NCBI RefSeq assembly: GCF_029360775.1
Contig: NZ_JARKMZ010000025.1
Span: forward strand, 27,027-91,026
Origin: Daejeonella sp. H1SJ63
GTDB taxonomy: Bacteria > Bacteroidota > Bacteroidia > Sphingobacteriales > Sphingobacteriaceae
Direction of reading: 5' to 3'
Length of the DNA stretch: 64,000 nt
The position numbers and the translations under genes are program-made. The notes under the pieces were generated by a model. It ran no database searches. It saw nothing but the letters and a program-made list of their open reading frames with translations, and was not told the origin of the DNA. This document shows, in pieces, positions 11,801 through 18,298 of this stretch (positions are counted from its first letter, which is position 1; each line of letters opens with the position of its first letter).

Positions 11801-12790
11801 ATGAAAAAGTATATGTTAAACCCTCACCTCATGCTGATGAGCTTTTTTGTTCTCGTTCTTGCCGGTTCAAGCTCCACAGTAAAAGCACAGGACGAAAAAA
11901 AAATCGTCCGCAGTATAATTATTTCTGATGGAGATACCATTATCAACGGGAAGAAAATAAGTGAAGCTACCCGCGAAGAGCGCATAAAGCTTAAGAAAGA
12001 ATTAAAAGAAATGGAAGATGGCATCCATGAGCATGCAAAACACGATAAGAAGGTAATAATAAAACGAAAAACCCCGGCTGATGAACCTGCCATAGCAAGG
12101 AATAACGATCATATGCACGAATTCAGATTTGAATTTGATGATAAAATGCCAGGAGGGAAACATTTATTCAGATTTGACTCAGACAGCATAATGTTAGGTA
12201 TGAATCCGGATTCGATCATGAAGACATTACGTTTTAAATTAAACGGACTCGACAGTAATCTGAGAAATCGAATCATTACCATGCATAGGGACTTTGATAT
12301 TGAAGGTCCGCAAATGTTTGTTACACCACGAACCCCGCGTCCTCCAATGCCTCCTGATGCTCCGGGTTTCTTTGAGCGTGGGCCACATTCCGGCATGGCA
12401 GACAAAAAAAACTCTTCTTCCTTCAATTATAATTATGTAGATAAAGACGGTATTCCAAGCCGCATGAGTATTCGCATCAGTGATGCCGAAAAAGAAAAAC
12501 TAAAAGCCATAACAGGTTCAGAGAATACATCAGTTGATCTGGATGTAAAGGATCTTACATTATTTCCGAATTTTTCAAACGGCAAAGCCGGATTATCATT
12601 TAACCTGGATGGGCGCGGCACAACTAAAATAAAGATACTGAATTCAGACATGAAGGCTATTTTTACCGACGAGCAAGCCTCTTTTCAGGGGAATTATATG
12701 AAGCAAATTTCCTTACCTCAGAATGGGGTTTACTATATCACAATCAGTCAAAACTCAAAATGGTTTGTGAGGAAACTGATTAAAAACTAA
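11801..12790 (+). CDS. Secreted protein with T9SS-like C-terminal sorting domain
   Basis: 329 residues with an N-terminal signal peptide (about 1-30, ending STVKAQ). The middle is rich in charged residues and Met, with a Pro-rich stretch (TPRTPRPPMPPDAPG, about 173-187) and no domain I recognise. The last 75 residues have the pattern of a type IX secretion sorting domain: LSFNLDGRGTTKIKILNSDM, then ISLPQNGVYYITISQ and the basic end KWFVRKLIKN. It is divergent from a two-component operon and may be regulated by it. It ends in a strong terminator. Function unknown. Confidence 0.7.
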   Translation: MKKYMLNPHLMLMSFFVLVLAGSSSTVKAQDEKKIVRSIIISDGDTIINGKKISEATREERIKLKKELKEMEDGIHEHAKHDKKVIIKRKTPADEPAIARNNDHMHEFRFEFDDKMPGGKHLFRFDSDSIMLGMNPDSIMKTLRFKLNGLDSNLRNRIITMHRDFDIEGPQMFVTPRTPRPPMPPDAPGFFERGPHSGMADKKNSSSFNYNYVDKDGIPSRMSIRISDAEKEKLKAITGSENTSVDLDVKDLTLFPNFSNGKAGLSFNLDGRGTTKIKILNSDMKAIFTDEQASFQGNYMKQISLPQNGVYYITISQNSKWFVRKLIKN

Positions 12791-12808
12791 TTGTGTTTTG
12801 TTAGAAAG

Positions 12809-12852
12809 CAGAAAGCCCCGCCCATAAATGGGATCGGGGCTTCTGTTTTTTT
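12809..12852 (+). terminator. Rho-independent terminator after the 11801 gene
   Basis: CAGAAAGCCCCG pairs with CGGGGCTTCTG, with an inner CCC/GGG pairing, followed by a run of nine T. It separates the secreted-protein gene from the sigma-factor locus. Confidence 0.88.
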
Positions 12853-12969
12853 TATTAGTTTTATTTATTACCGATTCAATAAGCTTCTTATTTATACAGG
12901 ACCTCAATGGTTTGGCCTGTTTAAAAGATTTTAATTTCTTGGAATACTTAATATGCAACTGAAAATAGG

Positions 12970-13572
12970 ATGAATATGCCGAATGACTTCTCAGATACAA
13001 CAGTAAGGATTAAAAACTGGGTAAGTTTGTATTCAGATACAATGTACACCTGGGCATATTACAAAACCGGGAATAAAGAAAGTGCCGAAGATCTGGTACA
13101 GGATACATTTCTGTCAGCCTGTCAGTCAATTCACGCTTTTGAAGGCCGAAGCGACCCTAAAACCTGGTTATTGGGGATCTTAAAAAATAAAATTGCCGAA
13201 CATTTCAGAAAAATTTATAGAAGTCCGGTATTAGCTGAGAATCCGGAAACTAAGCACAAGACTAACGAATGGCTTAATAATTTTTTCGATGAGGATGGAA
13301 GCTGGAATAAAGACCAGTGCCCGTCTGAATGGATAATGGAAAGTGAAAACCCTCTGGATAATGCAGAATTTCTAAGTGTTATGCAGGACTGTATGGGTAA
13401 ATTACCTCCAAACTGGAACGCTGCCATTCAATTAAAGTATCTGGAAGAAAGAAAGGGCGATCTTATTTGTCAGGAATTGCAGATAAGCCCGACTAATTTC
13501 TGGCAAATGTTACACAGAGCCAAACTGCAACTCAGGAGATGCCTGGAAATCCACTGGTTTAAAAAATTGTAA
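12970..13572 (+). CDS. ECF-type RNA polymerase sigma factor
   Basis: 200-residue sigma-70 family protein. Region 2 is seen at about 15-85 (YSDTMYTWAYYKTGNKESAE, DLVQDTFLSA, DPKTWLLGILKNKIAEHFRK) and region 4 at about 135-190 (LPPNWNAAIQLKYLEERKGD, then ISPTNFWQMLHRAKLQLRRC). A 45-residue acidic, Trp-rich linker (WLNNFFDEDGSWNKDQCPSE) lies between them. It resembles the Bacteroidota/proteobacterial group known as TIGR02943. The next gene, one base downstream of the stop, is a small zinc anti-sigma. MNM at the start allows initiation at either Met. It probably controls the downstream metal/RiPP genes. Confidence 0.88.
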   Translation: MNMPNDFSDTTVRIKNWVSLYSDTMYTWAYYKTGNKESAEDLVQDTFLSACQSIHAFEGRSDPKTWLLGILKNKIAEHFRKIYRSPVLAENPETKHKTNEWLNNFFDEDGSWNKDQCPSEWIMESENPLDNAEFLSVMQDCMGKLPPNWNAAIQLKYLEERKGDLICQELQISPTNFWQMLHRAKLQLRRCLEIHWFKKL

Positions 13573-13573
13573 G

Positions 13574-13831
13574 ATGATAAAGATAATACACCTGTTTATG
13601 CTTTCGTGTAAAAAAGCGACCGAACTAATTGAGAAAAAGTCTGTATTACCACTTTCATTAAAGGAAAAAATACAATTATATATGCACAAAAGTATGTGTG
13701 ATGCATGTACTGCCTATGAAAAACACAGTGAAAAAATTGATGAATTAATTCATAATCATATCCATTCGGAACACCGCGAAGTAATCCATAATAATGAGTT
13801 AAAGGAAAAAATAATCAGCAAACTGCCTTAA
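13574..13831 (+). CDS. Small zinc-binding anti-sigma factor
   Basis: 85 residues, or 77 from a second Met at 13598. It carries an HxxxCxxC motif (H38, C42, C45 in MHKSMCDACTAYEK) plus an early Cys in LSCKKATELIEKK, the arrangement of ZAS-type anti-sigma factors that hold an ECF sigma until zinc or thiol chemistry changes. No membrane helix is present, so it should be soluble. The start lies one base after the sigma stop, implying coupled translation. The His-rich C-terminus (HNHIHSEHREVIH) could add metal binding. Confidence 0.75.
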   Translation: MIKIIHLFMLSCKKATELIEKKSVLPLSLKEKIQLYMHKSMCDACTAYEKHSEKIDELIHNHIHSEHREVIHNNELKEKIISKLP

Positions 13832-13931
13832 GTGAGAAGCTATTGTAAACACTTTGAGTAAAGAACTGAATTTTACTGTAACGGATTGACATTTAAAATT
13901 TTCTTCGGACTGAAAGACAGCACAAATCAAA

Positions 13932-14540
13932 ATGAAACTAACACGCAACATCGACAAATTAGGAACAGGCGGACTTTTCCTGACCGCAATACTTTCACCC
14001 TGCTGTTTTCCTCTATTTGCATTTGCAGGTTCAGCAATAGGGTTTGGCAGTGCCGAACTTTTTGGCATCTGGACAATATGGATTTTTCAGGCTATGGTTT
14101 TAATTACAATTGGCGGACTTTACATTTCGTATCGCAGGCACCGTGGTATAAATCCATTAATACTTGCTATTCTGAGCGGACTTCTGATTTTTTACGCTTA
14201 TCACTTTGATAACACAGACTATTGGACCTACTATCTTTACGCAGGTATGTTTGGCCTTCTCATCGCAACAATCCAGAATTACAGACGAAATAAAATGCAG
14301 GGAACCTGTGATACTTGTACGACTTATAATGGCAAACCCGTTGAGTTACAATCAACACTGACTTGTCCGGACTGCGGGCATAAAAAAACTGAAATAATGC
14401 CGACAGATTCCTGTGTATATTTTTATGAATGTGAACAATGTAAAACACAACTTAAACCATTACAAGGTGACTGCTGTGTTTATTGTAGTTACGGATCCGT
14501 TAAATGCCCTCCTATTCAGACAGGAGAAAATTGCTGCTGA
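13932..14540 (+). CDS. MerC-type metal transporter fused to GDCCVxC domain
   Basis: 202 residues in two parts. Residues 1-118 are a MerC-like membrane domain with four helices and the metal-binding pair C24-C25 in LSPCCFPLFAFAG. Residues 120-202 form a Cys-rich cytosolic tail: CDTC (126-129), CPDC (145-148), CEQC (167-170), then the signature GDCCVYCSYGSVKCPP (179-194) and a final CC. The tail matches the small stand-alone GDCCVxC proteins of Bacteroidota. Such a fusion could pass imported or captured metal straight to the cytosolic domain. MerC is named for mercury uptake, but here copper or another soft metal is as likely given the neighbouring RiPP genes. Confidence 0.8.
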   Translation: MKLTRNIDKLGTGGLFLTAILSPCCFPLFAFAGSAIGFGSAELFGIWTIWIFQAMVLITIGGLYISYRRHRGINPLILAILSGLLIFYAYHFDNTDYWTYYLYAGMFGLLIATIQNYRRNKMQGTCDTCTTYNGKPVELQSTLTCPDCGHKKTEIMPTDSCVYFYECEQCKTQLKPLQGDCCVYCSYGSVKCPPIQTGENCC

Positions 14541-14945
14541 TTGGGCAGAATATCTGACCATTCGGGAAAAGGCAAATCAATCATTCTTATTCATATTTCA
14601 GAGTGGAGTGACTTGACCAGATTACGTTCTGATTTTTTTCATTTCATAATCAGCTGGGCAGGTAAAGGCAATGCACAATTTATTTTGTGACCAGACATTG
14701 TCAAATAGTCTGAACTTTCTTGCTTAAAATAAATATAGTTCTGTAAACAACAATCTCAGGATAGCGCAAAAAATCTTACGATTTCCAGAAACGGTAAAAA
14801 AACATAATCCAGCATTTCTTTTGTTCATTCACGGCAGCATTTTCCCACCCGCCAAAATATTTTTTTAATCTCTTGTCAGGTTTTTATAAATGCGGCAACT
14901 ATTCCTTTGTTAAATGAATTATCTCACAATTTTAAAATCAAAACA
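14541..14945 (+). other. 405-bp gap holding the leader of the precursor gene
   Basis: No convincing gene or RNA. AT-rich throughout. Near the right end are TTGTCAGG (14873-14880) and TTCCTTTG (14902-14909, one mismatch to TAnnTTTG), the only promoter-like pieces I see for the precursor gene; their spacing (26 bp) is too long for a standard primary-sigma promoter, so the neighbouring ECF sigma may be the one used. Confidence 0.4.
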
Positions 14946-15275
14946 ATGGAAAAGAAAAAAAGTATCCTGAACGGTTCATTAGTTGCAGGTGTTATCATCG
15001 CGGTATCAGGCTATAGTGCCAATGCCGCCGGAATGTTTAATTACTCTAACCTGGGTACAGGTGAAGAAATCAGAACCAATCTTTTGAATAAAGGAGAGGC
15101 CGGTAAAAGCTTTGAATTAAAGTGTGGCGAAAAAGGGAAAACCGAACCTGCAAAAAGAGGAAAAGATGGTAAATGCGGTGAAGGCAAGTGTGGTGATAAG
15201 AAAAAAGACACAAAAGCGCCGGACACTAAAACCGGTAAAGACGGCAAATGCGGTGCCACTAAAAAGGATATGTAA
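14946..15275 (+). CDS. hvfA: HvfA/bufferin-type RiPP metallophore precursor
   Basis: 109 residues starting MEKKKSILNGSL; an upstream TTG at 14907 is rejected. A signal peptide spans about 1-28 (SGYSANAAG cleavage region) and contains no Cys. The mature part begins with a conserved-looking FNYSNLGTGEEIRTNLL and ends in a Lys/Gly-rich tail with exactly four Cys, each followed by Gly: LKC60G, GKC77G, GKC82G, GKC102G. EGKCG/DGKCG repeats are the known modification sites of HvfA/bufferin peptides, where an MNIO enzyme converts Cys into oxazolone/thioamide or thiooxazole groups that bind copper. The maturase and partner genes follow directly. Metal specificity is not readable here. Confidence 0.82.
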   Translation: MEKKKSILNGSLVAGVIIAVSGYSANAAGMFNYSNLGTGEEIRTNLLNKGEAGKSFELKCGEKGKTEPAKRGKDGKCGEGKCGDKKKDTKAPDTKTGKDGKCGATKKDM

Positions 15276-15346
15276 TCCTTTGCTTCTAATTAAAGGGCAG
15301 GTGATTTGGTTTACCTGCCCTCATTTAAAACATTCAAAAAAATATC

Positions 15347-16177
15347 ATGGTAGGCATAGGTTACAGAAAAGATTTTGCGGAAGAGTTCTTACAAAGTAAT
15401 ATCCTGGATCCTTCATTTATTGAGGTAGCACCTGAAAACTGGATTGGTATAGGAGGCTTTTGGAAAAAACAATTTTTAAAGGTGTTGGAGAAATATCCCT
15501 TGTTCACGCACGGACTGTCATTATCCATTGGAAGTCCTGATGAACTTGATTTTGATTTTTTGCGAAAAGTGAAAGTTTTTTTGAATGAAACCAATTCGAA
15601 AATCTATTCAGAACACCTGAGCTATGCAAAATGCGATAATGCTCACTTATACGATTTACTTCCTATTCCTTTTACATACGATGCTGTAAAGCATGTTTCG
15701 AAACGTATTAAAACAGTTCAGGATTTACTGGAAAGAAAAATAGCGATTGAAATTGTGAGCTATTACACCCCGATTGCTCCTGAGTTAAAAGAGATAGAAT
15801 TCATAAACATGATTCTTGAGGAGGCAGACTGTGAGCTTCTGCTGGATGTAAATAATGTATATGTAAACAGTTTCAATCATCAATACGATGCCAAAGCATT
15901 TATTGACCAGCTTCCTATGGGTAGGGTAAGCTATATACACATGGCCGGACATGAAAAAGTATCCGATACCCTGATCATAGATACACACGGGGAAGCCATT
16001 ATTGACCCCGTTTATGATCTCTTCGAATACACGATGCATCAGTTAAAAAGAGATGTACCTGTTTTACTCGAAAGAGATTTTAATATCCCTGAATTACAGG
16101 AACTTCAAATTGAAATAAACAGGCTGAGCGCCATTAAACAATCGGCCTTAAAAATAAAAGATTATGCAACTGTCTGA
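15347..16177 (+). CDS. hvfB: DUF692 multinuclear iron oxidase, RiPP maturase (HvfB/BufB)
   Basis: 276-residue TIM-barrel protein of the DUF692/MNIO family, related to MbnB. The iron ligands can be placed: H55 (THGLSLSIG), E89/H90 region (YSEHLSY), E135 (IAIEIVSY), D167 and N169/N170 (LDVNNVYVN), H198 and H202 (HMAGH), D212 and H214 (DTHGEA) and E242 (LLERDFN). Family members use a multi-iron cluster to oxidise cysteine in a precursor peptide. The gene lies 71 bp after the precursor and overlaps the DUF2063 gene by 14 bp, the classical arrangement. All ligands are intact, so the enzyme should be active. Confidence 0.92.
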   Translation: MVGIGYRKDFAEEFLQSNILDPSFIEVAPENWIGIGGFWKKQFLKVLEKYPLFTHGLSLSIGSPDELDFDFLRKVKVFLNETNSKIYSEHLSYAKCDNAHLYDLLPIPFTYDAVKHVSKRIKTVQDLLERKIAIEIVSYYTPIAPELKEIEFINMILEEADCELLLDVNNVYVNSFNHQYDAKAFIDQLPMGRVSYIHMAGHEKVSDTLIIDTHGEAIIDPVYDLFEYTMHQLKRDVPVLLERDFNIPELQELQIEINRLSAIKQSALKIKDYATV

Positions 16178-16928
16178 ACCGACCTTTAAGCATCAGTCAA
16201 ACCTTGCGTCTTACTGCCGTACAGGCAAACTAAGCACCATACCCGGCATAATCAGGGAAAATGTACATCATTACCGCAGGCTGGTATATAATGTAGTAGA
16301 TGACATGCTTCAAAACGCCTATCCGATTACTCATGAACTATTGACAGCAAAAGAATGGGAAGGGGCGGTAAATAATTTTTTTACCAACCATCCCTGCCAA
16401 TCGCCCCAGGTATGGTATATGCCTAAGGAGTTTTACCAATTTCTTGCTGATACAAAACATCCATTACTGAAAAAGTACCCTTTTCTGGAAGAATTGCTCT
16501 GGTTTGAATGGGTAGAGGTAGAATTATTTATGATGGAAGATAAAATTGTTCAGGCAGATAAATCCGGCAATATTTTATCAGGAAGATTAGTACTGAACCC
16601 TGAACATCACTTACTTTCCTTTAACTACCCGGTGCATAATAAAAATGCCAAACTCATTAAGATTAGCGATAAAGGAAAGTATTATGTAATTGCTCATCGC
16701 AATACAGAAGGCGAAGTGATCTTTACCGATAGCTCTCCGGCATTAATCAGGATGATAGAGTATCTTTCAGAAAGCCCTCTATCAATAAAAGAACTTTTCA
16801 ATGAGTTTCAGCAGGAATACAATTTACTACTTTCAGATGAAGACCAGAAATCGATCATCCGGTTCTTTGAAAATGCTTATAAACAGCAATTAATTATAGG
16901 TTTCGGTAAGCAAAATGATTTGATATGA
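16164..16928 (+). CDS. hvfC: DUF2063 RiPP recognition/partner protein (HvfC/BufC)
   Basis: 254 residues. The N-terminal DUF2063 domain (about 8-100) shows FKHQSNLASYCRTG, YRRLVYNVVDDMLQNAYPIT and the short FFTNHPCQSPQ segment; the C-terminal half (about 110-250) is an RRE-like region ending in helices. In characterised HvfBC and BufBC pairs this protein binds the precursor and supports the MNIO enzyme. It overlaps the maturase by 14 bp and the DoxX gene by 4 bp (ATGA), showing tight co-translation. Confidence 0.9.
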   Translation: MQLSEPTFKHQSNLASYCRTGKLSTIPGIIRENVHHYRRLVYNVVDDMLQNAYPITHELLTAKEWEGAVNNFFTNHPCQSPQVWYMPKEFYQFLADTKHPLLKKYPFLEELLWFEWVEVELFMMEDKIVQADKSGNILSGRLVLNPEHHLLSFNYPVHNKNAKLIKISDKGKYYVIAHRNTEGEVIFTDSSPALIRMIEYLSESPLSIKELFNEFQQEYNLLLSDEDQKSIIRFFENAYKQQLIIGFGKQNDLI

Positions 16929-17368
16929 ATATAACAGATAAATATTTTTCAGCATCGGCGGATATTGAAAAAGCAAAATTCCTGCCTCTTCTTTTAATGC
17001 GACTGCTGATAGCTTATGGCTTTTATGGCCCTGCAATCATGAAGTGGAACGATATAAACAGCATCGCAGAATGGTTTGAAAGCCTTGAGATCCCTCTGCC
17101 TTATCTGAATGCCTATCTGGCAGCAGGTACAGAAACTTTAGGGGTGGTATTATTGTTTTTAGGATTAGGAACACGTTTTATTACTATCCCTCTAATTATA
17201 ACAATGCTGGTTGCCATTAAAACGGTTCATTGGGCAAACGGTTTTGAAGCCGGTGAAAATGGATTTGAAATTCCATTATACTACATCATCATGCTACTTA
17301 CACTATTTATTTATGGCTCCGGAAAATTAAGCCTGGACAGATTAATCGAAAAGAAATTCAGGTCTTAA
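16925..17368 (+). CDS. DoxX-family membrane protein of the RiPP locus
   Basis: 147 residues with four predicted helices. Family features: LLLMRLLIAYGFYGPAIMKW near the start, YLAAGTETLGVVLLFLGLGT in the middle, and the late VHWANGFEAGENGFE loop. DoxX proteins are regularly encoded next to hvfABC-type genes, where they are thought to work in the membrane in handling the modified peptide or copper. It starts by ATGA overlap with hvfC, so it is the fourth gene of the operon. Confidence 0.88.
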   Translation: MNITDKYFSASADIEKAKFLPLLLMRLLIAYGFYGPAIMKWNDINSIAEWFESLEIPLPYLNAYLAAGTETLGVVLLFLGLGTRFITIPLIITMLVAIKTVHWANGFEAGENGFEIPLYYIIMLLTLFIYGSGKLSLDRLIEKKFRS

Positions 17369-17436
17369 AATATTAATTATAAGATCAAATAAATCTGTAA
17401 TCAGGAAATCGAAGAAACAATTTAAAATAAACAAAA

Positions 17437-17685
17437 ATGGCAAATCAAATTAAACAATCGGTATTTGCCGGTTTTGCCGGAACTGCTGTAATGATTATGA
17501 TCATGTTCATTGCGCCGTTTATGGGTATGCCAAAAATGAATCCGGCAGTCATGCTTGCAGAAATGATGAGTTTACCCATGGCATTGGGCTGGATCACTGC
17601 TTTACCCGGTATGGTTTTTATCATTCAGGGAATAACCAACAGGTCTTGCCATTGGAATTGTTTTAACCCCGGAAGGGGCATTTAA
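17437..17685 (+). pseudogene. Small membrane protein, probably truncated or frameshifted
   Basis: 82 codons. The first 50 residues read as a good membrane protein (IKQSVFAGFAGTAVMIMIMF, then PFMGMPKMNPAVMLAEMM), similar in style to four-helix integral membrane proteins of about 150 residues found in Bacteroidota. After about residue 64 the sequence turns into an unlikely Cys/Asn/Arg tail (NRSCHWNCFNPGRGI); another frame there reads TGLAIGIVLTPEGAFNQ and then stops. This suggests a deletion or frameshift that removed the second half. It follows the DoxX gene by 68 bp. It could also be a genuine short gene. Confidence 0.5.
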
Positions 17686-17825
17686 TCAATAAACCGGGAA
17701 GAATAATTGAATTTTTAATATGACATAACTCTGCTGCCGTCTGAATTGAACATTAAAGCAGGAAAATCCCCATGTCTGAGCAATCTTTTTCAGGGACTTC
17801 AAAATAGAATGTGCCTATGCTAAAA

Positions 17826-17872
17826 GACAAAATGAGACCCTCTTTTAAAAGCAATCTCATTTTGTCAATTAT
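17826..17872. terminator. 12-bp perfect hairpin between convergent genes
   Basis: GACAAAATGAGA (17826-17837) pairs exactly with TCTCATTTTGTC (17855-17866), followed by AATTATTTTT. It ends the RiPP operon from the left and the DUF3127 gene from the right. The 250-bp gap around it holds nothing else I can identify. Confidence 0.7.
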
Positions 17873-17938
17873 TTTTAAAATTAAAATAACAAAGCTGTAT
17901 TCAGTGAATGCGTTATTTTAAAACAAAATTCTTCCAAA

Positions 17939-18298
17939 TCAGAAAGGAAGATCATCATCACCCGGAGCAGAGCTGATATCAATCGGGGCAGCATACTCAG
18001 GAGCTGCTGATTCTGAAGAACCGATTGCATTTAATCTCCAAACCGATAAAGTATTGAAGTAAGATGTTTTACCCGTTTTATCTGTCCATGGGCGGCCACG
18101 CAGGTTAAAGAATAACTCTACCTGATCGCCAACCTTAACTTTATCGAACAAATCAACCTTATCCTGAACCGCCTCAAATTTCACATATTCCGGATAAGTT
18201 GGGTTTTCTGCATATTCAAGTATAAGTTCACGCTTTTTGAACTTATCACTCACGGTAATCACCGCTGAGATTTCATGTACTTTTCCTTTAACTTCCAT
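17939..18298 (-). CDS. DUF3127 family protein
   Basis: 119 residues beginning MEVKGKVHEISAVITVSDK, which is how members of this family start; the longer frame from a TTG at 18361 is rejected. The fold is OB-like (LILEYAENPTYPEYVKFEAV, GDQVELFFNLRGRPWTD, YFNTLSVWRL) and ends in an acidic tail (SSAPGDDDLPF) like that of single-stranded DNA-binding proteins, where such a tail recruits partners. Binding to single-stranded DNA is therefore plausible but inferred. Divergent from the methyltransferase gene. Confidence 0.85.
   Translation of the reverse strand: MEVKGKVHEISAVITVSDKFKKRELILEYAENPTYPEYVKFEAVQDKVDLFDKVKVGDQVELFFNLRGRPWTDKTGKTSYFNTLSVWRLNAIGSSESAAPEYAAPIDISSAPGDDDLPF

Follow-up and report, generated by a model that had tools for sequence, protein, structure and literature searches.

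A 64,000-nucleotide stretch of the genome of Daejeonella sp. H1SJ63 (contig NZ_JARKMZ010000025.1, positions 27,027 to 91,026), referred to here as the window, carries a gene cluster for a ribosomally synthesised and post-translationally modified peptide (RiPP) resembling HvfA, preceded by the genes for an extracytoplasmic function (ECF) sigma factor and a small zinc-type (ZAS) anti-sigma factor. The same promoter-like motif was found before hvfA and, embedded in the codons of the sigma gene, ahead of the anti-sigma gene. The seven genes named in a preliminary description of this DNA were all found as consecutive open frames on the + strand and are given below, together with a short frame that follows them. 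Papers are cited by PubMed Central number, in each case from parts of the text.

12970-13572, + strand, ECF sigma gene (Sigma70_r2 and Sigma70_r4_2; nearest NCBIfam model TIGR02943, below its cut-off)
13574-13831, + strand, ZAS-type anti-sigma factor of 85 aa, all-helical, no transmembrane segment evident (NF052368, zinc ligands)
13932-14540, + strand, MerC-GDCCVxC fusion, between the anti-sigma gene and the promoter-like site of hvfA (Pfam MerC, NF041374)
14946-15275, + strand, HvfA-like RiPP precursor of 109 aa with a signal-peptide-like start (four Cys-Gly motifs; homologues in 79 of 80 related loci)
15347-16177, + strand, HvfB, MNIO (DUF692) maturase (NF003818 387.0 bits, cut-off 360; 3BWW E=2.5e-74)
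16164-16928, + strand, HvfC, DUF2063/RRE partner protein (NF050145 144.5 bits, cut-off 142; 3DEE E=0.00068)
16925-17368, + strand, HvfX, DoxX-family membrane protein (NF050144 129.5 bits, cut-off 80)
17437-17685, DUF6789-like short frame of 82 aa (best stretch matching the first 63 of 144 profile positions)

The peptide module and its sigma/anti-sigma pair

The hvfB and hvfC genes overlap by 14 nt and hvfC and hvfX by 4 nt, in line with the earlier statement that the last three genes overlap or nearly touch. HvfB, HvfC and HvfX all scored above curated NCBIfam cut-offs and, on this profile evidence, the locus is a cluster of the HvfA/oxazolin (captophorin) type, which upholds the HvfA-type module of the preliminary description. 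The marks of bufferins (Buf1/Buf2) were absent: the precursor had no Pfam match at E<=1, and the BufB model NF050167 gave 263.8 bits, below its cut-off of 310. HvfB aligned with 3BWW across the HGLSLS, HLS, AGH and DTHGE stretches. Read by motif and without direct alignment, DTHGE would hold the counterparts of D242 and H244, which are named for Haemophilus influenzae HvfB (PMC13419390). The assignment of the precursor is weakened by its scores with NF050137 (18.2 bits, cut-off 19.5) and NF050188 (21.8 bits, cut-off 95). Each of its four Cys residues is followed by Gly, so that the Cys-Gly motifs expected earlier are present, but the strict form EGKCG occurs at only one of them and the motifs are mostly DGKCG.

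The anti-sigma factor contains C12-X25-H38-X3-C42-X2-C45, which fits the ZAS definition C/H-X23-26-H-X3-C-X2-C (PMC7907618) and has a Cys/His spacing identical to that of RsrA (PMC2893595). The Cys and His ligands were kept in 62-63 of 63 sequences, and thus the protein had rightly been called a small zinc-type anti-sigma factor. Its AlphaFold model had a mean predicted local distance difference test score of 82.7. A possible likeness of the model to zinc-form RsiW came from the top two PDB matches of a fold search, which were non-significant (E=3.0 and 3.2, probability 0.35 and 0.60). Counting against the assignment, NF052368 gave 47.4 bits, under its cut-off of 50. From its family, the protein would be expected to hold the adjacent sigma factor, of which no close paralogue was found in the same genome (next best match E=1e-5). 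Class I anti-sigma domains lie beside only 6% of ECF sigma factors in Bacteroidetes (PMC7406223).

A GTDB genome scan with HvfB gave 137 relatives. The best 80 of these were taken as the related loci, and their neighbouring genes were called with profiles grown from the window proteins. HvfC was present in 80, HvfA in 79, the ECF sigma factor in 64, the anti-sigma factor in 62 and HvfX in 59. The commonest layout (39 loci) was ECF, anti-sigma, HvfA, HvfB, HvfC, HvfX, which is the window order minus the MerC fusion. Full layouts occur in cultured relatives such as Chitinophaga rupis (L023) and C. eiseniae (L080). In 61 of the 80 loci the sigma and the anti-sigma gene both lay upstream of hvfB at a distance of no more than 3 kb; of the 73 loci with 2.2 kb or more of sequence ahead of HvfB, 59 had both. 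The preliminary description had named a lack of conservation of the neighbours of the sigma gene as one outcome that would refute it, and the result, a ZAS factor and its sigma factor beside hvf in 61 of 80 loci, argues that the switch belongs to the module. A chance neighbourhood was rejected on the same count. The record titles were mostly of Bacteroidota and Ignavibacteria, and the few Beijerinckiaceae, Patescibacteria and Saccharibacteria labels are probably binning errors.

The Daejeonella sp. H1SJ63 genome has a single MNIO gene. At E<=1e-20, MNIO genes were found in 14 of 200 relatives (own genome included); among the 19 congeners of the strain, genome G013 alone had one. Thus the module is patchy in its distribution. 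The G013 locus (L157:5571-7598) contains hvfABC with a KDHKCG-repeat precursor, no adjacent sigma/anti-sigma pair and no motif before hvfA; it would have been either rewired or acquired separately. The DUF6789-like frame at the end of the window locus is possibly a broken gene, and a profile grown from the window protein found such a gene in none of the 80 related loci.

The MerC-GDCCVxC fusion scored 63.0 bits with Pfam MerC (cut-off 27.6) and 100.9 bits with the GDCCVxC model NF041374 (cut-off 40), but 31.6 bits with the MerC equivalog NF033784, under its cut-off of 140. On a model built on the preliminary description it would form part of one integrated metal system, capturing or importing the metal that is sensed by the zinc anti-sigma factor and bound by the peptide. 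The merC gene does share the orientation of the anti-sigma gene and of hvfA, which flank it, no + strand terminator-like site was seen in a scan of 12700-18000, so that a transcript shared with the anti-sigma gene could occur, and MerC|bufferin fusions are known elsewhere (PMC12452194). However, a profile scan found MerC-GDCCVxC in none of the 80 related loci. The distance from the anti-sigma gene to hvfA is 1114 nt in the window, compared with 82.5 nt as the median over 60 relatives, and in one related locus (L017:4664-5443) a DUF547 protein occupies the slot held here by the fusion. Full-length fusions were found at six further places in five genomes among the 200 relatives (own included), and the five places examined had unrelated neighbours within about 1.5 kb, judged by eye and not by profile. 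The fusion was rejected as a conserved part of the system. From these comparisons of loci, it is a passenger, an accessory gene that lies after the anti-sigma gene and ahead of the promoter-like site of hvfA, and an integrated metal system of the kind first proposed is distinctly unlikely. In a literature search for GDCCVxC, no paper with that word was among the matches listed.

A promoter-like motif before hvfA and inside the sigma gene

Dyad counts upstream of hvfA gave TGTAAGG-N15-CGTCT. A matrix was grown from hvfA-upstream DNA alone, two of the 80 regions being dropped as shorter than 32 nt, and the motif is TGT[AC]AGG-N15-C[GA][AT]CTA. It was present at fixed spacing in 60 of the 78 regions (window included), and all 60 sites scored higher than any of 780 shuffled regions, for which the maximum was 9.4 bits. 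Taken with the 61 loci that have the sigma/anti-sigma pair, this bears out the earlier view of a locus with its own switch. When both strands of the window were scanned, two strong sites were found, the next best reaching 10.9 bits.

13466-13497, + strand, promoter-like site embedded in the region 4.2 codons of the sigma gene (TGTCAGG 13468-13474, CGACTA 13490-13495; 78 nt before the anti-sigma start)
14872-14903, + strand, promoter-like site before hvfA (TGTCAGG 14874-14880, CAACTA 14896-14901; 44 nt before the start codon)

With a matrix from which the window had been excluded, the site before hvfA scored 22.7 bits. The internal site was found by scanning whole loci with the hvfA matrix and scored 25.6 bits, although that matrix contains hvfA-upstream DNA only; the DNA at this site encodes ICQELQISPTN in region 4.2. 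The 3.65-Mb genome of Daejeonella sp. H1SJ63 contains two exact matches to TGTMAGG-N15-CRWCTA, both in this locus, where we estimate that about 0.9 would be expected on both strands if bases were even (23 bits). Dyad counts gave no word pair common to many sigma-upstream and hvfA-upstream regions. In two related loci (L031 and L033) the sigma/anti-sigma pair is inverted relative to hvf and yet both motif sites are kept. In five Flavobacteriales-labelled loci (L041, L045, L047, L063 and L095) the gap between the anti-sigma gene and hvfA is 19-32 nt and hvfA lacks its own site, an arrangement consistent with read-through of transcription started at the internal site. Where hvfX lies away from hvfC (L034, L037 and L089), it carries its own motif.

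The pair might be a frequent neighbour that controls other genes and not hvf. Indeed hvf can live without the pair, since 4 of the 14 full loci with no adjacent pair keep the hvfA motif and the other 10 have neither, and pairs also occur without hvf (29 in the sample described below). Set against this are the gene order common to 61 of 80 loci, the presence of the same motif with the same spacing at hvfA and in the sigma gene, and the location of the only two exact genomic matches in this one locus. Control of other genes instead of hvf is thus highly improbable.

Several counts nevertheless weigh against a simple dependence of hvfA on the adjacent sigma factor. The four loci that keep the hvfA motif with no adjacent pair are among them, and a sigma match at E<=1e-15 was found in 2 of these 4 genomes compared with 3 of the 10 without the motif. 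A fixed-spacing site was missing before hvfA in 6 of the 59 full loci that have the pair, and a further 2 were too short to score; one of the 6 (L062) has the motif with one extra base. With one mismatch allowed, 13 matches were found in the genome of the window whereas the reversed pattern gave 36, so that no further regulon is seen there. The N16-spaced pattern in the same genome gave background only (18 matches against 18 for the control).

Proposed alternative wirings and codon constraint

Sigma relatives were also collected irrespective of hvf. Matches at E<=1e-25 were present in 55 of 395 genomes of the phylum, loci were taken from the best 30 (own included), five further loci were added from a search of 14 genomes, and duplicates were removed. 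Of the 62 hvf-linked pairs (window included), 57 had the internal site, about 80 nt before the anti-sigma gene, 1 (L036) had a site upstream of the sigma gene and 4 had neither. The corresponding numbers for the 29 pairs without hvf were 17, 9 and 3. An hvf-linked sigma gene without an anti-sigma match (L181) had neither site. The internal and the upstream site were found together in none of 92 sigma genes. In the sigma-upstream test, from which sigma genes shorter than 160 aa were left out, 2 of 58 regions matched, but the match of L046 is its own internal site and thus only that of L036 is genuine. Residue 168 of the sigma factor is S, T, A, L, D or R in the upstream type, compared with K (AAG) or Q (CAG).

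The codons of the internal site were strongly biased. At codon 167, TGT occurred in 56 and TGC in 4 of 62 sigma genes (window included), the other Cys codons being 98 and 89 respectively. Codon 168 was AAG in 44 and CAG in 14 of 61 and never AAA or CAA, whereas elsewhere in these genes AAA occurred 863 times and AAG 319 times, with 288 CAA and 266 CAG. Codon 174 ended in CG in 46 of 61. When third-base bias was measured relative to the codon usage of the respective locus, in columns holding at least 40 sequences, the strongest biases of 183 sigma columns were at codons 174, 168, 167 and 175 (z 11.6, 10.8, 6.8 and 6.3), exactly the codons of the motif blocks, with codon 44 just below them (z 6.1). 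As expected, codons in the overlap of hvfB and hvfC were also high in the ranking. Synonymous recoding of the gene ends predicted 16.8 sites in 91 genes where 74 were observed, and the real site beat all 60 recodings in 40 of those 74.

These results must be set beside the possibility that the internal motif arises as a by-product of amino acid conservation in region 4.2 and is not a promoter. The pair would then be expressed from a housekeeping promoter ahead of it, and the sigma factor would be needed for hvfA only. The ICKEL/ICQEL residues are conserved, and several of our own counts also weigh against an embedded promoter. In the window gene 48% of the recodings passed the threshold, although none reached 25.6 bits. 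In 34 of the 74 internal-type genes at least 1 of the 60 recodings scored as high as the real site. The internal site was absent in 5 of the 62 hvf-linked pairs. Unrelated codons reached z 8.1 in HvfC and 7.1 in HvfB, and hence codons 167 and 175 alone prove little and only 174 and 168 stand clearly apart. A by-product would not, however, account for an excess of 74 sites over 16.8, for the use of AAG or CAG in 58 of 61 genes to the exclusion of AAA and CAA, for a type of residue at 168 that changes exactly in the upstream-type sigma factors, or for the five loci that have no other site before the anti-sigma gene and hvfA. The argument for an embedded promoter depends on codons 174 and 168, on the outcome of recoding and on the sigma factors of the upstream type, and a by-product appears unlikely.

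The mutual exclusion of the two sites must be read with some caution. A quick tree was built from 91 rows after removal of sigma factors shorter than 120 aa and of those with identical final 120 residues, and on it the internal and upstream labels changed about twice. Exclusivity is thus supported by few events: L036 and, for the most part, a single clade in which the window's family is abundant. The choice of A or C in the -35 block agreed between the two promoters in 46 of 46 loci (Fisher p 7e-11) and in 61 of 62 in the wiring-tree set, but this amounts to about one clade split and was not counted as independent evidence.

Among 84 sigma factors with a scored site, those with TGTCAGG had Gln or Lys at residue 179 in region 4.2 and those with TGTAAGG had Val or Ile there, with two exceptions. 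Residue 179 is a candidate specificity residue, though confounded with the same single clade split. In the genome of L029 (Chitinophaga costaii), another locus (L162) has strong motif copies at 596, 1031, 2801 and 2966 around a sigma/anti-sigma pair whose sigma gene has neither an internal nor an upstream site; it is possibly a regulon hub.

Proposed circuit and relation to known systems

From the sequence comparisons above we consider, with good confidence, that a dedicated switch of ECF sigma and ZAS anti-sigma factor governs this locus, a Bacteroidota MNIO RiPP cluster of HvfA/oxazolin (captophorin) type; the sigma factor would read both the internal and the hvfA site and the response would be self-limiting. 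At rest, the small cytoplasmic zinc anti-sigma factor would hold the sigma factor, as in its family. A thiol-reactive signal, either an oxidant such as HOCl or thiophilic Cu(I), Hg or Au, may then attack the Cys3His zinc site and free the sigma factor. The freed protein would read TGT[AC]AGG-N15-C[GA][AT]CTA inside its own gene, giving a transcript of the anti-sigma gene and perhaps merC, and would read the motif before hvfA, giving hvfABCX. By homology, HvfB and HvfC together would oxidise the Cys-Gly motifs in HvfA, with 5-thiooxazoles as the most likely product, and the peptide would bind copper once exported. Since there is no motif upstream of the sigma gene while the brake has one, activation should produce more brake and no amplification of the sigma factor, that is, a self-limiting response and not a latch.

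More generally, we think it likely that in Bacteroidota and Ignavibacteria this sigma factor has a target promoter within the codons of its own promoter-reading domain. This promoter would drive the brake, and in some lineages the whole peptide operon, and would limit residue 168 to Lys or Gln. It would be swapped, and never combined, with a promoter upstream of the sigma gene, switching the system between brake-only feedback and self-amplification.

The module, the pairing of a sigma/ZAS switch with hvf and the logic of the feedback each have a precedent. The sigma E/MseR system of Neisseria meningitidis (NMB2140-NMB2145) likewise consists of an ECF sigma factor and a cytoplasmic ZAS anti-sigma factor co-transcribed with a DoxX cluster, with the same Cys/His spacing as in the window (PMC2893595). 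NMB2140-2143 would be hvf genes, judging from the DoxX gene, the comparison with Haemophilus (PMC7907618) and gonophorin (PMC13097082). However, the meningococcal operon is autoregulated from the front and the sigma and anti-sigma genes come last (PMC2893595), whereas the window locus opens with the pair, and its two motif copies are found within the sigma gene and upstream of hvfA, with none ahead of the sigma gene. H. influenzae RpoE2/HrsE has a 67-aa anti-sigma factor of the same ZAS type, and its DoxX cluster (COG3767, COG3220, DUF2063) is strongly RpoE2-dependent after HOCl (PMC7907618). In addition, msrAB is under RpoE2 control and the rpoE2 promoter is activated by RpoE2 itself (PMC7907618), in contrast to the window, with no sigma-upstream site and no third exact site in the genome.

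The proposed feedback resembles that of SigH/RshA of Corynebacterium glutamicum, where the ZAS anti-sigma gene rshA has a SigH-dependent promoter within sigH and sigH itself is expressed from housekeeping promoters (PMC3489674). The promoter-type motif inside the window sigma gene and before the anti-sigma gene is placed as this type requires. The authors of that work suggest that, through the promoter within sigH, the brake stays in excess and the response can be shut down quickly (PMC3489674). The corynebacterial system differs in its phylum, in its GGAA/GTT-type motif, in its wide stress regulon and in having no RiPP, and neither constraint at the codon level nor a location in region 4.2 was found in the parts of PMC3489674 consulted.

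Concerning the peptide, the captophorins oxazolin, fontiphorin and gonophorin share with the window a signal-peptide precursor with KCG repeats, HvfB, HvfC and DoxX (PMC13097082, PMC13419390). The window precursor differs in having four Cys residues, mostly in DGKCG, and in coming from another phylum, and its product is known from sequence only. Bufferin clusters with a sigma factor and NrsF are also ECF-linked MNIO clusters, but NrsF belongs to another anti-sigma family (PMC12452194). In a survey of MNIO clusters, the sigma/NrsF genes occurred in Buf1 and not in Buf2 clusters, and for EGKCG/oxazolin clusters, mostly in Pseudomonadota, chiefly core genes were listed, the only extras named being of the redox type (PMC12452194). 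In the open-licence literature, sampled in part, we found neither a sigma promoter in region 4.2 codons nor a Bacteroidota sigma/ZAS/hvf locus. Thus the motif, its location in region 4.2 codons, its conservation at the codon level and the two alternative wirings are apparently new, none having been found in the literature searched.

These findings extend thiooxazole-metallophore clusters, so far mostly from Pseudomonadota, to a regulated form across Bacteroidota and Ignavibacteria, and the defined promoter motif allows targets to be found by sequence. The feedback design could be tested by removing the putative internal promoter with synonymous changes that leave the sigma protein unaltered, and natural relatives provide the other wiring. 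If confirmed, this would be an unusual regulator whose protein sequence is constrained by a regulatory DNA signal within its own gene. With two candidate promoters, the question of the inducer (copper, mercury or HOCl) becomes a reporter experiment.

With regard to the signal, HOCl and H2O2 increase rpoE2 in H. influenzae (PMC7907618), whereas expression of meningococcal sigma E is unaltered by oxidative stimuli (PMC2893595). Genes behind the same motif in other genomes include those for RclC-like, AhpC/TSA-like and DUF1223 proteins. In L175, L184 and L188 a membrane protein follows the anti-sigma gene, with sites of 28.5-29.4 bits; that of L175 matches DUF417 and, weakly, RclC, a likeness which points to reactive chlorine stress. 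In L174, L176, L177 and L182, which come from relatives within the window's family, small Met/Lys-rich peptides with signal-peptide-like starts replace hvfA behind the anti-sigma gene, each with its own motif. We take these peptides to be reminiscent of MrpX-type hypochlorite scavengers, as if the same switch could drive either Cys-rich or Met-rich sponges. Finally, in L174, L176, L177 and L185 a similar-looking protein, which in L177 is a DUF1223 protein, is encoded divergently from the sigma gene with its own copy of the motif.

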